From Desulfatitalea alkaliphila (GTDB taxonomy: Bacteria > Desulfobacterota > Desulfobacteria > Desulfobacterales > Desulfosarcinaceae), in assembly GCF_022968795.1 (NCBI RefSeq), contig NZ_JALJRB010000006.1, forward strand, positions 124,001 through 188,000: DNA of 64,000 nucleotides, given 5' to 3'. The position numbers were made by a program, and so were the translations under genes. Under the pieces are notes generated by a model. It had not been told where the DNA came from. It searched no databases and was given only the letters and a program-made list of their open reading frames with translations. Shown piece by piece: positions 40,858 through 48,061 of the stretch (positions are counted from its first letter, which is position 1; each line of letters begins with the position of its first letter).

Positions 40858-42593
40858 CCGTTTCTCAAGGGAAAGGCGGCATTTTTGCCGCCGTCAGGGA
40901 AAAGTGGGCCATCGTCCGTTCGGATGACCGTTTGATGGTCATCGCCCTGGCGGCCTGCGTGGGGCTGTTCAGTGGATTGGCCGCCGTGGCCCTGACCCGC
41001 GCCTTGCATTTCATGGCCCATCACTTGGCCGGCGCCCACCACCAATGGTGGGGGTTTTTATTGCCGGCTCTCGGGGCCACCCTCGCGGCACTGTTCATCA
41101 ATGTCATCCTGCGGGAGCGACCGGGGCACGGCGTGCCCGAAGTGGTGCTGGCGGTGTTGCGGCACGGGGGGCGGTTGCGCTTTCGCTCCAGCTTCTCCCG
41201 TTTGGTGGCCAGTAGCCTGACCATCGGCAGTGGTGGTTCGGCGGGCCCCGAAGCGCCGGTCGTGGTCAGCGGGGCGGCCCTGGGGTCCAACTTCGGTCAA
41301 TTGTTCGGCCTGAACGAGCGCCAGCGCACCACCCTGGTGGGCTGCGGCGCGGCCGGCGCCATCGGCGCCATCTTCAATGCCCCCATTGCCGGGCTGGTGT
41401 TCACGGTGGAGGTGATCCTGGGCGAGTGGCGCGCCTTCAATGTCGTGCCCATCGCCATCGCGGCGGTGGCCGGCACCCAGATCAGCCGGGTGCTGCAGGG
41501 CAACCAGATCGCCTTCGCCCACCAACAGTTTCACATCGGCCTGGCCGACATCGGCGCCAGCTTCGGGGTGGCGGTCATGGCCACCATCGGCGCCGTGGCC
41601 TTGGCGCGCATGATCAACGGCATGCAACATGTGGCCGCCCGAACACCGCTGCCGCGCTGGTTGCGCCCGGCCGTGGGCGGCGCGGCCGTGGGACTGATCG
41701 GCATCTTCCTGCCCTTCGTCATGGGCGAGGGGTACCAGTCGGTGCAACAGGCCATCGACGGCGTTTTCGCCCAAGGGGTGGCCTGGGCGGCCCTGGCGGT
41801 GGCGGCCAAGATCTTGGCCACCACGTTGACCATCGGCTGGGGCGGGGCCGGTGGCATTTTCGCGCCCAGCTTGATGGTGGGCAGTTTGATCGGGGTGCTT
41901 TACTATCGTTTGCTGATCTGGGCCTTGCCGATGGCCGACTGGACCAATGAGGGCTTTTTCGCCCTGCTGGGCATGGCGGGCATGATCAGCGGCATTTTGC
42001 AGGCGCCGTTGACCGGGATTTTTCTGGTGGTGGAGATCACCGGTGGCTACGACGTGATCGTGCCTTTGATCATTGTGTCGGTGCTGACCGCCACTTTCTG
42101 CCACTATCTGGAGCCGGGATCCTTCTACCTGCGGGAGTTGATCGAAAGGGGCGATTACATGCGCCCCGGAACCGACGCGCGGGTGCTGGCCGACCTGAAG
42201 GTCCAGGAAGTGATGACCGCCGAACCGGTCAACGTGCCCAACGATATGCTGCTGGGGGATTTCGTCAATTTGCTGGAACAGACGCCGGGCTTGGTATATC
42301 CGGTGTACGATTGCGGTTCCGGCGACTATCTGGGGATGGTGTTCGCGGATCGTATCCGTCCCTACTTGTTCGATCCCCGGATGCACACCATGCTCATCGT
42401 AGAGCAACTGATGGCCGACGACATTCCCGCCGTTCAGGCCGGTGACGACCTGGCCGGTGCACTGGAGCTGATGGACGCCCACGGCTTGCAGCATCTGCCG
42501 GTGGTGGCGGGCCACCGCTGCATCGGTGTGCTTTCCAAGGAGAAACTGCTCGACCACTATCGCAAAGAGCTGATCGTGCAGACCGGCGGTTGA
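40854..42593 (+). CDS. ClC-family chloride channel/antiporter with CBS domains
   Basis: A 579-residue ClC protein. The membrane domain shows GSGGSAGPEAPVV (equivalent to the GSGIP and GxEGP ion-pathway motifs, gating glutamate kept) and GGAGGIFAPSLMVGS (GGxFxP motif). The C-terminal 130 residues form a CBS pair (starting VQEVMTAEPVNVP and ending PVVAGHRCIGVLSKE) that could sense adenine nucleotides. It starts at GTG 40854, overlapping the EIIA gene's stop. It converges with the selenoprotein gene. Confidence 0.93.
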   Translation: MTVSQGKGGIFAAVREKWAIVRSDDRLMVIALAACVGLFSGLAAVALTRALHFMAHHLAGAHHQWWGFLLPALGATLAALFINVILRERPGHGVPEVVLAVLRHGGRLRFRSSFSRLVASSLTIGSGGSAGPEAPVVVSGAALGSNFGQLFGLNERQRTTLVGCGAAGAIGAIFNAPIAGLVFTVEVILGEWRAFNVVPIAIAAVAGTQISRVLQGNQIAFAHQQFHIGLADIGASFGVAVMATIGAVALARMINGMQHVAARTPLPRWLRPAVGGAAVGLIGIFLPFVMGEGYQSVQQAIDGVFAQGVAWAALAVAAKILATTLTIGWGGAGGIFAPSLMVGSLIGVLYYRLLIWALPMADWTNEGFFALLGMAGMISGILQAPLTGIFLVVEITGGYDVIVPLIIVSVLTATFCHYLEPGSFYLRELIERGDYMRPGTDARVLADLKVQEVMTAEPVNVPNDMLLGDFVNLLEQTPGLVYPVYDCGSGDYLGMVFADRIRPYLFDPRMHTMLIVEQLMADDIPAVQAGDDLAGALELMDAHGLQHLPVVAGHRCIGVLSKEKLLDHYRKELIVQTGG

Positions 42594-42614: not shown

Positions 42615-43094
42615 CTACTGCCCCTTGGCCTCGAAAGCATAGAGCCGGTCAATGAGGAACGTCACGTAGCGCTGGCATTTGTCCTTCCAAATCTCCGATT
42701 GCCGAAATCGTTTGTATTCCCCGTCTTGGGAAAAATCGATGCCCAGCAGCTCGCCGCAGGCGATGGCACCGAATTCATTTTCGAATTCGACGGCCAGTCG
42801 GCCGGCCAGACCGCGGATGGTGTTGCGCGCCTGTTTTGCGGCCGGTTTGTCCGCAAGCGGCTTGCGGTGATGCAGCCCGAGGGCGACGGCGGCCGCCGAA
42901 AGGGCGCCGCAGGGCGCCTTCTGATGGCCGCTGATACCCGACAAGAACGGGATGCCGGCCCATAGAAAATCTTCGTTGTCCATGCCATAGCTTTCCCACA
43001 TAACTTGCAGGAGGGCCGGACCTCAGTGGTAACCTTTGTGCATCAGCGCCAAGGCCCGTTCCCGGGCCTCGGTCAGGGGCAAGGTCATCGTCAT
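42615..43094 (-). CDS. predicted selenoprotein: C_GCAxxG_C_C family redox protein with in-frame TGA
   Basis: A 159-residue protein if the TGA at 43025-43023 is read as selenocysteine (residue 24). The reading MTMTLPLTEARERALALMHK, then GYH-U-GPALLQVMWESYGMD, continues without a frame change into PCGALSAAAVALGLHH, ACGELLGIDF and DKCQRYV. This is the C_GCAxxG_C_C pattern (TIGR01909/PF09719), in which the first invariant residue after a GY-x pair is normally cysteine; Sec replaces exactly that residue. AAGGA lies 9 nt before ATG 43094. A SECIS-like hairpin follows the TGA. The ATG at 43001 used by an ordinary caller would delete the N-terminal helix and the redox residue. It sits 55 bp downstream of rfbD. 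Sec machinery is not in the window, so recoding remains a prediction; a nonsense mutation is the alternative. Confidence 0.8.
42994..43012 (-). promoter_or_regulatory. bacterial SECIS-like hairpin after the in-frame TGA
   Basis: Ten nt after the TGA, UCCUGCA (43012-43006) pairs with UGUGGGA (43000-42994) in a 7-bp stem with two G-U wobbles around the loop AGUUA. The TGA-to-loop distance is 17 nt and the loop has G at its second position. Both are within the published bacterial SECIS rules as I recall them. Confidence 0.6.
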
Positions 43095-43149
43095 CGGTGT
43101 CATTCCTTTTCGTGGTTAACTGCAAAGCCCAAGTCGGGGCTTGCCCTGT

Positions 43150-44034
43150 TTAGTGTGGTACGTTCATGTCCCGCAGCATCTCTGCGAGTCCCGCTTCCCA
43201 CGAACGCCGGGTGATGCCGAAGCGTTCTTCCAGGCTGCCGCAGTCCAAAACCGAGTAGGCCGGCCGGGCGGCGGGGGTGGGATAGTCGGCGGTCGAAATG
43301 GGCACGACTTGCCGCACCGCCAACGGCTCCCGGTCCCGGGCCATGTCGATGATACGGCAGGCGAAGGCCCACCAGGTGACCGCCGGCGGATTGCAGAAAT
43401 GGTATGTGCCCCATCCCGAACGGCGGTCCAATGCATGGCCGGCGATGGTCAGCAGGGCGTCGGCCAGGTCGCCGGCGTAGGTGGGGCAGCCCACCTGATC
43501 GTCCACCACGCGCAGGGTGTCCCGTTCGCCTGCCAGGCGCAGCATGGTACGCACGAAGTTGGCCCCGTGGCGGCCGAACAGCCAGGAGGTGCGCACGATG
43601 ATGTGCTGCTGCCAACGGCGACGCAGTTGCGTTTCTCCTTCCGCCTTGCTGTGTCCGTATACACCCACCGGTTGAATCGGATCGTCGGGTCGGTAGGGCC
43701 TGGCCTGACGGCCGTCGAACACATAGTCGGTGGAAACATGGATCAGCGGCAGTTGTCGCCCGCGGCAGAGGTCGGCCAGTGCCGCCACGCCGTCCCGATT
43801 GACGGCGAAGGCGGTTGCGGCATCGCTTTCGGCGGCGTCGACGGCCGTATAGGCGGCGGCGTTGATCACCACCTGCAAATCGCCGGCGCCCTCCACCAGC
43901 GCCTGCAAGCTTGCCGGGTCGCTGATATCGCATCGGGGCAGGTCGCCGCCGACCGCTGCCCAACCGCGCGCGGCCGCCATGGTCATGAGATCGCGGCCCA
44001 GTTGGCCGTTGCTGCCGATGATCAAGGTGCGCAT
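43150..44034 (-). CDS. rfbD: dTDP-4-dehydrorhamnose reductase
   Basis: A 294-residue SDR enzyme for the last step of dTDP-L-rhamnose synthesis, using NAD(P)H. The nucleotide-binding loop is IIGSNGQLGRDL; VINAAAYTAVDAAE, STDYVFDG and the catalytic YGHSK (YxxxK) follow. ATG 44034 overlaps the end of rfbC. Last of the contiguous manC-rfbBACD set. Confidence 0.95.
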   Translation of the reverse strand: MRTLIIGSNGQLGRDLMTMAAARGWAAVGGDLPRCDISDPASLQALVEGAGDLQVVINAAAYTAVDAAESDAATAFAVNRDGVAALADLCRGRQLPLIHVSTDYVFDGRQARPYRPDDPIQPVGVYGHSKAEGETQLRRRWQQHIIVRTSWLFGRHGANFVRTMLRLAGERDTLRVVDDQVGCPTYAGDLADALLTIAGHALDRRSGWGTYHFCNPPAVTWWAFACRIIDMARDREPLAVRQVVPISTADYPTPAARPAYSVLDCGSLEERFGITRRSWEAGLAEMLRDMNVPH

Positions 44035-44041
44035 GGCGGAA

Positions 44042-44599
44042 TCACGCTCCGTAAACCGGCAGCCGGTCGGCCGCGACTTGCGCCAGCGGCGGGAAGTCGC
44101 GGTCGCGGTCGGAGAGCAGTGGATCGTCGACGGGCCACCGGATGTCCAGGGCGGGATCGTTCCAGACCACGCCCCCTTCGTTTTGCGGCGCGTAATAAGT
44201 GCTGCATTTGTAGAGAAAAAGGGCGGTGTCGCTGAGGACACAGAAGCCGTGGGCGAACCCCGCCGGGATGAAAAGCTGTTGCGGCCTGTCCGCGTTGAGG
44301 GTCACCCCCACCCATTGTCCGAAGGTGGGGGCGCCGCGGCGCACATCCACCGCCACATCGAAGATTTCGCCCGCCAACACCTGCACCAGCTTGGCTTGGC
44401 CGCCGGGATGCTGGTAGTGAAGGCCGCGCAGGGTGTTGCGGCGCGAAAAGGAAATATTGTCCTGTACGAAGGTGGCACCGATGCCGGCCTCGGCATAGCG
44501 CCGCTGTTGATAGGTTTCCATGAAATAGCCGCGTTGATCCCCGAAGCGTTGCGGTTCCACGAGCAACACCTCCGGCAGTCGGGTGGGGGTTACCTTCAT
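44042..44599 (-). CDS. rfbC: dTDP-4-dehydrorhamnose 3,5-epimerase
   Basis: A 185-residue cupin epimerase. [28 protein letters not shown] with the catalytic histidine, [17 protein letters not shown] and [14 protein letters not shown] are diagnostic. It converts dTDP-4-keto-6-deoxyglucose to the L-lyxo isomer. Its start overlaps the rfbA stop by 4 bp. Confidence 0.96.
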
Positions 44600-45477
44600 G
44601 GCGCCATCTCCTTGCGGGCGATCAAGTCCATCAGGTATTGGCCGTAGCCGTTGTTGCGCAACGGGTGGGCCAGTTCAAGTACCTGCTCGCTGTCGATGTA
44701 GCCCATGCGGTAAGCGATCTCCTCGACGCAGGCCACTTTCAATCCTTGGCGCTGTTCGATCACTTCGATGAAGCTGGAGGCCTGCATCATGCTTTCGTGG
44801 GTGCCGGTGTCCAGCCAGGCGATGCCGCGCCCCAGCTTTTCCACGAACAGTTGCCCTCTTTCCAGATAGGTGCGGTTCACATCGGTGATCTCCAACTCCC
44901 CCCGGGGCGAGGGACGCAAATCGGCGGCGATTTGCGTCACCTGCTGGTCGTAAAAGTAAAGGCCGGTAACAGCCCATTGGGAGGGCGGTACCTGCGGTTT
45001 TTCCTGGATATCGATGGCCCGGCCTTGCCCATCGAAGGCCACCACGCCGTACCGTTGGGGGTTTTTGACCCAGTAGCCGAAGACCGAAGCGCCGGCTTCG
45101 CGGTGCATCGCATGGGCCAGGGTGGCGGGCAGTCCGTGACCGTAAAAGATGTTGTCGCCCAGCACCAGGCACACCGGCCGGCCGTCGATGAAGCGGCGGG
45201 CGATGAGGAACGCCTGGGCGATGCCTTCCGGCCGCGGCTGTTCGGCGTAGCTGAAGGAGAGGCCCCACTGGCTGCCGTCGCCCAGCAGCTCCTCGAAACG
45301 GGGCAGGTCCTGGGGGGTGGAGATGAGGCAGATGTCCCGGATGCCGGCCAACATCAAAACGGACAAGGGATAGTAGACCATGGGCTTGTCGTAGATGGGC
45401 AGCAACTGCTTGCTCACCACCCGGGTGATGGGGTAGAGGCGCGTGCCGCTGCCCCCGGCCAGAATGATGCCTTTCAT
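44596..45477 (-). CDS. rfbA: glucose-1-phosphate thymidylyltransferase
   Basis: A 293-residue nucleotidyltransferase starting [19 protein letters not shown], with the catalytic/binding segments [19 protein letters not shown] and [10 protein letters not shown]. It makes dTDP-glucose, the first committed step of dTDP-rhamnose synthesis. Its start overlaps the rfbB stop by 4 bp and its stop overlaps rfbC. Confidence 0.97.
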
Positions 45478-46598
45478 CGGTGTGCGTGCTCCTTGGTGGG
45501 TGTCGCCGGACCCCGCGTGCCGTCGGGGCCGTATTGGGTTTCCATCCAGCGGCGGTAATCGCCGCTGCGGATGAAGTCGATCCAGGGGCCGTTGGCCAGG
45601 TACCAGTCCACCGTTTCGGCCAGGGCCGTTTCGAAGCGGTAGCGGGGCCGCCAGCCCAGTTCCCGTTGGATCTTGCCGGCATCGATGGCGTAGCGCCGGT
45701 CATGTCCCGGCCGATCGGTGACGAAGCGGATCAGTCGGCGGCTGCAACCGTCGCCGCTGCGGCCCAGGCGCTGGTCGAGCAGGGCGCACAATTGTTCCAC
45801 CACATCGATGTTGCGCCGTTCGGCACCGCCGCCGATGTTGTAGGTCTGCCCCGGCACGCCCCTTTCCAGCACGGTGGCCAGCGCTTCGCAATGGTCCACC
45901 ACATAGAGCCAGTCGCGCACGTTGGCACCGTCGCCGTAGACCGGCAGCGGCTTTTCTTCCAGGATGTTGAGGATCATCAAGGGAATCAGCTTTTCGGGAA
46001 ACTGATAGGGACCGTAGTTGTTGGAGCAATTGGTCACCATGGCCGGAAAATCGTAGGTCCGATGCCAGGCGCGCACCAGGTGATCGGCGGCCGCCTTGGA
46101 CGCGGAGTAGGGGCTGGAGGGGTCGTAGGGCGTGGTTTCGCTGAAATAGTCCTCCGGGCCCAGACTGCCGTATACTTCGTCGGTGGAGACATGCAGAAAG
46201 CGAAAGGCGGCCGGTCGTCCCATCTGTTCCCAATAGGCCCGGCAGGCCATCAGCAACCGTGCGGTGCCGGTCACATTGGTCTCCACGAAGGCCAGGGGTC
46301 CCGCGATGGAGCGGTCCACGTGGGACTCGGCGGCGAAGTGGATCACGGCGGCGGGGGATTCCTCATGCAACAGACGTTGCAGCAGGTCGCTGTCGTTGAT
46401 ATCGCCGTGCACAAAGCGGTAGCGTTCCGGCGCGTCGCGGGCCACATCGTCCAGGTTGGCGGCATTGCCCGCATAGGTGAGGGCATCCAGGTTGACGATG
46501 CGGCATTCGGACATTTGGACCAGTGTGTGCCGAATGAAATTGGTGCCGATGAAACCGGCGCCGCCGGTGACCAGGAGGGTTGACGCGGATCGGTTCAT
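45474..46598 (-). CDS. rfbB: dTDP-glucose 4,6-dehydratase
   Basis: A 374-residue extended SDR enzyme: NAD loop [36 protein letters not shown] and the catalytic YSASK. ATG 46598 follows GGAGG and overlaps the manC stop by 4 bp. Confidence 0.96.
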
Positions 46599-48061
46599 GA
46601 GGCGGCCTCCGTTTTGCCGGATGGGTTCCCCGCCGCGCCGTTGTGACGCCCGTACACATCGTCCAGGCGGATCACATCGTCCTCGGCCAGGTAGCTGCCC
46701 GACTGGATCTCCACCAGTTCCAGGGGGATTTTGCCCGGGTTTTCCAGGCGGTGCACGGTGCCCAGGGGGATGTAGGTGGATTGGTCCTCCTTGAGCAGAA
46801 ACTGCTCCTCGCCCCGGGTGACCAGGGCCGTTCCCTTGACCACTACCCAATGCTCGGCCCGGTGCATGTGGCGCTGCATGGAGAGTTGGGCGCCCGGTTT
46901 GACGGTGATGCGCTTGACCAGAAAGCGCTCCGACACATCGATGTCCTCGTAGCCGCCCCATGGGCGGTAGACATTGCGGTGATCCACGGTCTCCGGACGG
47001 TCGTCCGTCTTGAGCCGGTCCACCAGGGCCTTGACCTGCTGCACGCAGTGGCGCGGCGCTACGAAAACCGCATCCTTGGTCTCCACCACCACATGGTTGT
47101 CCAGGCCCACGGCGGTCACCAGTCGGCTGGAAGCGTGCACGAAGGAGCGGTGGACATCCTGCAAGTAGACATCGCCGTGAATCACATTGTCTTGCCCATC
47201 CTTAGTGCCGGCCTGCCACAGCGCTTCCCAGGAGCCCAAGTCGCTCCAGTCACTGGCCAGGGCCACCATCACCCCGTCGTCGGTTTTTTCCATCACGGCG
47301 TAATCGATGGAATCCGAAGGGCTTTGTGCAAAGGCCGCCTTGTCCAAGCGAAAGAAATCCAGGTCTGTGCGGCCCCGGGCGACGGCCAGGCGGCAGGCGG
47401 CCGCAATTTCGGGGGCATGCCGCTCCATCTGTTCGATCAGTTTGCCGGCGCGGAACATGAACATGCCACTGTTCCAGCAATAGTCGCCGGAATTGACGTA
47501 TTGCTGCGCCGTTTGCCGGTCCGGCTTCTCCACGAACCGGTCGATGGCCCAGGCCGGCGGGCTGTCCCCATTCAAAGCGCTTCCTTTGCGGATGTAGCCG
47601 TAGCCGGTTTCCGGCGCGTCCGGGGTAATGCCGAAGGTCACCATGCGCCCCTCGGCGGCCAGGGCGGCGCCCTTGCGCACCGTGGCGACGAAGCCGTCCA
47701 CATCGCGTATGTGGTGGTCGGCGGGCAACACCAGCAGGATCGGGTCGGTTTCGTCAGTGCCGGCGAGCAGCGCCGCCACCGTCAGGGCCGGGGCTGTGTT
47801 GCGCGCCGCCGGTTCCAGCACGATGGCCGCCGGAGTGAGGCCCATGCGCCGGATCTGCTCAGCCACCACGAAGCGGTGCGCTTCGTTGCACAACAGGATG
47901 GGCGCTGCGATCCCATCCAAGGCCTGGAGGCGCAACAGGGTGCTCTGGAGCAGGGTCGGTGTGTCCACCAAGGACATGAACTGTTTTGGATAGAGGCTGC
48001 GGGACAGGGGCCACAAACGTGTTCCCGATCCGCCGGCCAACACGACGGGCGTAATGGTCAT
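46595..48061 (-). CDS. manC: mannose-1-phosphate guanylyltransferase/mannose-6-phosphate isomerase
   Basis: A 488-residue type II PMI-GMP. The N-terminal nucleotidyltransferase ([20 protein letters not shown]) makes GDP-mannose. The C-terminal cupin begins around [11 protein letters not shown] and contains [16 protein letters not shown] with metal-binding histidines, the isomerase part. As the first gene of the manC-rfbBACD run it couples GDP-mannose and dTDP-rhamnose supply for LPS, capsule or exopolysaccharide; no glycosyltransferases or export genes are in the window. Confidence 0.96.

Follow-up and report, generated by a model that had tools for sequence, protein, structure and literature searches.

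A predicted stand-alone HUGP-type selenoprotein gene in Desulfatitalea alkaliphila

Limits and surroundings of the gene

The window, that is, the whole 64,000-nucleotide stretch of D. alkaliphila DNA analysed here, contains on its minus strand a 159-residue frame (43094–42615) that begins with an ATG, has a TGA as its single internal stop, and is closed by a TAG at 42617–42615 (Table 1). The first-pass annotation had read this frame through the TGA with no change of frame, and translation confirmed that reading. The motifs it had named, GYH-TGA-GPALL, PCGALSA, ACGELLGID, and DKC, are all present, and the ribosome-binding site it had placed ahead of the longer start is an AAGGA, which a second in-frame ATG at 43103 abuts directly. 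A mechanically made list of open reading frames starts the gene at ATG 43001, and, as had been anticipated, this start removes residues 1–31, codon 24 among them. The ATG at 43001 sits at the edge of the loop of a predicted SECIS hairpin (described below).

Table 1. Features of the predicted HUGP gene; positions are those of the window.
Feature	Position	Strand	Basis
Predicted HUGP-type selenoprotein CDS, stand-alone, 159 residues	42615..43094	-	Translation; NF045501, 232.7 bits; PF09719, 54.4 bits
TGA codon 24, predicted selenocysteine in His-Sec-Gly-Pro	43023..43025	-	22 TGA and 3 TGC among 25 distinct full-length orthologues
Shine-Dalgarno-like AAGGA, 9 nt 5' of ATG 43094	43104..43108	-	Sequence
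Internal ATG, Met32; start chosen by mechanical ORF list	42999..43001	-	Listed ORF 42615..43001
Predicted upper stem-loop of a bacterial SECIS (7-bp stem, 5-nt loop at 43005–43001), 17 nt past TGA	42994..43012	-	Pairing in 22/22 TGA rows

A convergent open reading frame, presumably encoding a ClC channel, ends at 42593, only 22 bp past the TAG, and thus leaves little space for a second domain. Directly upstream (43150–48061, minus strand) lie rmlD-, rmlC-, rmlA-, and rmlB-like frames together with a mannose-1-phosphate guanylyltransferase-like frame, which we take to be a rhamnose-type cluster. Of 19 loci compared, 7 have the ClC-like frame beyond the HUGP gene; these 7 all belong to the genus of D. 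alkaliphila, outside which the gene neighbourhood is not kept. In L073, L075, and L082, a CCG/4Fe-4S gene lies directly upstream on the same strand and ends 32–84 nt from the HUGP gene; in L073 it is itself preceded by an FAD-linked oxidase gene. At L074, the HUGP gene is flanked by DUF169 genes.

Family membership and domain architecture

The first-pass annotation had assigned the protein to TIGR01909/PF09719. The PF09719 (C_GCAxxG_C_C) half of this assignment stands, with 54.4 bits for the read-through protein against a gathering cut-off of 27; TIGR01909 is matched only below its cut-off, with 31.8 bits against 47.4. NF045669 is likewise matched below its cut-off (50 bits against 103). So is NF045501, the "HUGP/GUXX-star fusion selenoprotein", which is matched with 232.7 bits over positions 1–157 of 236, below its cut-off of 325. 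Because the match covers these positions and the translation contains the His-TGA-Gly-Pro (HUGP) motif, the D. alkaliphila gene is, as judged from its translation, the HUGP domain alone, the first domain of NF045501.

Comparison with known systems revealed that (i) the D. alkaliphila protein shares the whole first domain of the NF045501 fusion, including His-Sec-Gly-Pro, but lacks the C-terminal GUXX-star glutaredoxin-like domain and has one TGA rather than two; (ii) it shares the 4 conserved Cys/Sec positions of the C_GCAxxG_C_C family (PF09719; TIGR01909, "(seleno)protein"); and (iii) the UXX-star selenoproteins (NF041114 and NF041212) represent a distinct domain, which is a candidate partner and not a homologue, and which is fused to HUGP in 3 relatives. 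These full HUGP/GUXX-star fusions were found in 2 Chloroflexi MAGs (L079 and L080) and in HGW-Deltaproteobacteria-12 (L082). In them, the HUGP domain continues into a glutaredoxin-like domain ending in Gly-TGA-Thr-Val-stop, and the L079 fusion scores 438.1 bits in NF045501. A plasmid search with the fusion gene gave no match.

The 3 stand-alone orthologues tested (D. alkaliphila, L074, and L067) fall below every NCBIfam cut-off among their matches. Automatic naming therefore probably overlooks the stand-alone HUGP form, so that this selenoprotein type would be misannotated and its copies given a false start at the SECIS. A whole-model NF045501 tally (46 of 60) was discarded as a count of HUGP, since the GUXX-star part of the model draws in ordinary glutaredoxins and also matched 11 of 14 control genomes.

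The novelty of the gene is lower than the first-pass annotation implied, because NCBIfam already has the subgroup as a selenoprotein, in NF045501. The subgroup also appears in the review PMC13188914, whose table and reference list attribute NF045501 to Haft and Tolstoy 2025. The C_GCAxxG_C_C family is listed there with Sec forms 1 and 2, either of which may correspond to the HUGP subgroup. The kind itself is thus known, and what is added here is the stand-alone form, a Sec/Cys pair within one genus, and a link to split-Soret cytochrome c.

A second PF09719 subgroup, with the motif GYN-TGA-AQS, was also observed to carry a TGA at the same first cysteine (L021:1501–1926, L022:1501–1902, and L024:1501–1914).

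Codon 24 and the hairpin that follows it

Across 25 distinct orthologues of full length, codon 24 is either TGA (22 rows) or TGC (3 rows) and never anything else, in line with the earlier proposal that the TGA falls on the first conserved redox cysteine of the family. Excluded from this set were duplicates of kept rows (L009–L013, L015, L084–L087, L089, L092, L094, and L097), L014 and L088, which repeat the D. alkaliphila locus itself, and the C-terminal remnants L016/L099 (G006) and L019 (G054). The TGA-bearing orthologues span Desulfobacterota and Chloroflexota MAGs, and one row (L083) has one codon missing ahead of the TGA. In a search of the contig collection, 15 of 18 relatives had TGA and 3 had Cys at this codon. 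In a class-wide search, 18 of 389 genomes were matched at E ≤ 1e-20, with one TGA in 14, none in 3, and a truncated copy in 1. Within the 11 genomes of the genus, an intact copy was found in 7 (TGA in 4 and TGC in 3), G006 holds a remnant, and a close HUGP match is absent from G002, G003, and G007.

The protein sequence is kept on either side of the TGA (alignments A1 and A3), including the residues upstream of it, whose lack of conservation had been named as a possible refutation. Without residues 1–31, the NF045501 match falls from 232.7 bits to 174.3, and the Sec/Cys positions 24, 62, 113, and 140 are invariant in alignments A3 (19 rows) and A6 (17 rows). A column of TGA and TGC only in 25 orthologues, together with a conserved protein upstream, places the TGA frame beyond chance. 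These data bear on the reading in which the TGA is a true stop and the gene is either a shorter one that begins at Met32 (43001) or a pseudogene in decay. A standard 128-codon frame does run from 43001 and still scores 47.3 bits in PF09719, and in 2 other genomes just a C-terminal remnant is present (L016 and L019), which lacks the N-terminal (Sec) half in any frame examined and may reflect either decay or rearrangement there. However, the part upstream of Met32 is worth 58 bits of the NF045501 match, the short form is missing the first of the Cys positions that are invariant across the wider family, and the TGA is retained in the 22 orthologues from 2 phyla and replaced by TGC in the other 3, so that we consider a true stop very improbable.

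The genome has the means to decode UGA as selenocysteine. The absence of selB or selC would have spoken against recoding, and selA (605.2 bits), selB (379.6 bits), selC (tRNA-Sec, 73.5 bits), and selD (367.2 bits) were all found above cut-off in this draft assembly (98 contigs, 99.68% complete); only above-cut-off matches were counted, as weak matches to selB, selC, and selD turn up in control genomes too. The selD gene (L061, G000:C16:32576–33502) has an in-frame TGA of its own, in the context Gly-Ser-Gly-TGA-Ala, and is likely to encode a selenoprotein itself. Decoding of the TGA as another residue such as Trp, through an altered code or plain readthrough, would account for the open frame and for nothing more, and is hardly credible given that all 3 replacements are TGC (Cys) and that the full Sec pathway is present.

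The predicted hairpin after the TGA agrees with the bacterial SECIS geometry described in PMC13188914 (a loop of 3–9 nt, a stem of 4–16 bp, a G within the first 2 loop positions, and a distance of 16–37 nt from the TGA), having a loop of 5, a stem of 7, a spacing of 17 nt, and G followed by U from loop position 2. A hairpin from one sequence alone is no proof: the single-sequence fold has a z of -1.43, and 19 of 200 shuffles fold equally well. The consensus fold of the TGA rows is a 7-bp stem with the loop A-G-U-U-A or G-G-U-C-A (the last loop base is U in L072). All 7 stem pairs form in 22 of 22 TGA rows, and the 3 Cys rows form 6, 5, and 6 of the 7, so that none has the full stem. The stem pairs are invariant across the TGA rows and hence show no covariation (RNAalifold covariation term 0). 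Loop columns 21 and 24 are A-U in 18 and G-C in 4 of the TGA rows, a pair that was picked post hoc from the alignment, encloses 2 bases only, and is not exactly the published N1-N2 pair.

The energies of the region vary among the 22 TGA rows. Over nt 4–48, the folding energy is -15.0 for D. alkaliphila, within a span of -8.0 to -18.6; for the core hairpin (nt 11–36), it is -7.2 for D. alkaliphila and reaches -7.5 kcal/mol or lower in just 7 of 22 rows, the source of the -7.5 value naming no stretch to which it applies.

Codon usage in the hairpin region is nearly uniform. In the TGA rows, codon 28 ends in C (22/22), Leu29 is CTG (22/22), and codons 30 and 31 are CAA GTT (18) or CAG GTC (4) and nothing else. 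Rows differ synonymously by 0.23 in codons 28–34 and by 0.55 in codons 25–27 and 35–60, where only codons with more than 20 same-residue pairs were counted; codon 43 (TTT), outside the hairpin region, is equally uniform. When codons were recoded synonymously, all 7 pairs formed in 336 of 2000 recodings for D. alkaliphila, 560 of 2000 for L074, and 544 of 2000 for L082. For 2 of the Cys rows, 0 of 2000 recodings each formed the full stem, because their protein sequence no longer permits it.

A sequencing error (TGC to TGA) in the GCF_022968795.1 assembly, for which the draft state of the 98 contigs might speak, is the least credible of the alternatives, as 21 further distinct orthologues have the identical TGA and SECIS-type conservation lies downstream. 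The orthologue and SECIS data accordingly led us to reject a pseudogene, a changed code, and a sequencing error. Recoding, which the first-pass annotation had offered as an interpretation, is thus backed by the orthologue column, the machinery, and the upstream conservation, and the reading of TGA-24 as selenocysteine by the D. alkaliphila HUGP gene is a strongly supported prediction.

The cysteine clade within the genus

The 3 Cys rows (L067, L068, and L069) form one clade (support 100/99), which is nested in a set of 7 rows with D. alkaliphila and 3 other Sec rows (support 96/91) in a tree rooted by midpoint only. Above-cut-off selB was found in all 6 of the other genus genomes with an intact HUGP gene, the Cys genomes included. 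Since the Cys rows are a single clade inside the genus and their genomes retain selB, the data suggest that Cys replaced Sec in this clade and that the RNA constraint was then relaxed, a direction that would depend on a root that is not fixed. The 2026 review PMC13188914 regards such replacement as rare, with FdhA and SelD as the main documented cases.

Two residues changed along with codon 24. In 3 of 3 Cys rows, codon 29 is ATG in place of CTG (Leu29 to Met) and codon 34 is CAG (Glu34 to Gln), whereas all 22 Sec rows have Leu29 and Glu34. The coupling of columns 21 and 24 is lost in the Cys rows too, as is the full stem. A change of Leu29 and Glu34 in the Cys clade only is a hint that the hairpin RNA had been fixing the protein sequence at these positions. 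The genus thus supplies a Sec/Cys pair of one protein, which is a useful test case.

Predicted fold and candidate redox function

The AlphaFold2 model of the protein, built with 19 sequences, has a mean pLDDT of 88.9 and is all helical except for isolated bridges. When it was aligned with VIA-align to 245 PDB chains chosen by Foldseek, the best match was the split-Soret cytochrome c 1h21 (143 aligned residues, RMSD 3.7, identity 17%), at a Z of 10.9, a value to be read with the caution that helical models may reach a Z of about 13 through a common arrangement; the runner-up had a Z of 3.9. In the Foldseek search against the PDB, 1h21 is missing from the 49 chains at E ≤ 10, the best of which has an E of 2.2.

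Sequence comparisons gave a graded picture. PDB searches with the single protein and with the HUGP profile A3 returned nothing at E ≤ 10, and the wider profile A6 placed 1h21 first at an E of 0.19, near an unrelated chain at 0.21. Compared locally with split-Soret, the HUGP profile alone gave a probability of 14.9 (E 0.0018, one template), and the wider A6 profile gave 85.2 (E 6.1e-06) against the split-Soret profile A7; a forced end-to-end alignment of the HUGP and split-Soret profiles was rejected as meaningless. In the profile alignments, a split-Soret Cys faces Sec24, and the split-Soret CGA motif faces the HUGP CGA at Cys62. A survey of the phylum turned up split-Soret homologues in 17 of 395 genomes. 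All 3 of those tested match PF09719 (46.7–56.5 bits), and the one tested against NCBIfam scores 430.2 bits in NF047622, a model absent from the NCBIfam matches of the HUGP protein at E ≤ 0.1.

The HUGP protein and split-Soret cytochrome c thus have the PF09719 core in common, with a possible likeness in fold coming from the AlphaFold2 model. The HUGP translation differs in that it contains no CxxCH heme-binding motif and, by eye, has no leader-like N-terminus. Split-Soret cytochrome c, whose 1h21 entry bears the title "a novel iron centre", reportedly has an Fe-S centre in addition to its hemes. Literature searches found no paper linking either split-Soret or Desulfatitalea to a selenoprotein.

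Taking these results together, we propose, with a probability of roughly 85%, that the stand-alone HUGP protein is a selenoprotein with a redox role. SelB would bind the SECIS hairpin just past UGA-24, and selenocysteine would be inserted at the first of the 4 invariant Cys positions. The resulting site of Sec24, Cys62, Cys113, and Cys140, held in a split-Soret-like core fold, may carry out heme-less redox work, most likely through an Fe-S or other metal centre or else through selenol-thiol chemistry. The Fe-S step is modelled on the split-Soret comparison and is put forward tentatively, at slightly less than even odds. The fuller idea, in which HUGP would be a heme-less relative of the split-Soret core with Sec as a natural Fe-S ligand, and in which the genus would supply, through its Cys clade, a matched natural experiment (one protein with Cys in place of Sec, the hairpin constraint lifted, and selB retained), seems to us doubtful. 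The split-Soret link gives a testable biochemical idea for the HUGP domain.

The site could also be described without a metal centre, Sec24 and the cysteines acting as a peroxidase- or reductase-like selenol/thiol catalyst that is recharged by a UXX-star glutaredoxin. This reading, which we place somewhat below an even chance, is compatible with Sec insertion and competes with the Fe-S step alone. In its favour are the fusion of a glutaredoxin-like UXX-star domain to HUGP in L079, L080, and L082 and the presence in the D. alkaliphila genome of a separate UXX-star selenoprotein with 2 TGAs. In addition, a TGA-bearing UXX-star match occurs in 3 of the 4 Sec-HUGP genomes of the genus (all except G004) and in 0 of the 3 Cys-HUGP genomes, which count as a single event and of which one is 64% complete. 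However, the Sec and Cys residues are scattered along the chain (24, 62, 113, and 140) with no CxxC pair, and TGA-bearing UXX-star matches are likewise found in G002, G003, G006, and G007, members of the genus without an intact HUGP gene.

For the proposed HUGP selenoprotein as a whole, whichever chemistry its site performs, a UXX-star glutaredoxin-like selenoprotein, with which it is fused in 3 relatives, would be a likely partner. The UXX-star gene of D. alkaliphila (L048, G000:C27:42095–42310) lies on a different contig of the same genome and scores 101.4 bits in NF041114; the second of its 2 in-frame TGAs stands 2 residues ahead of the stop.
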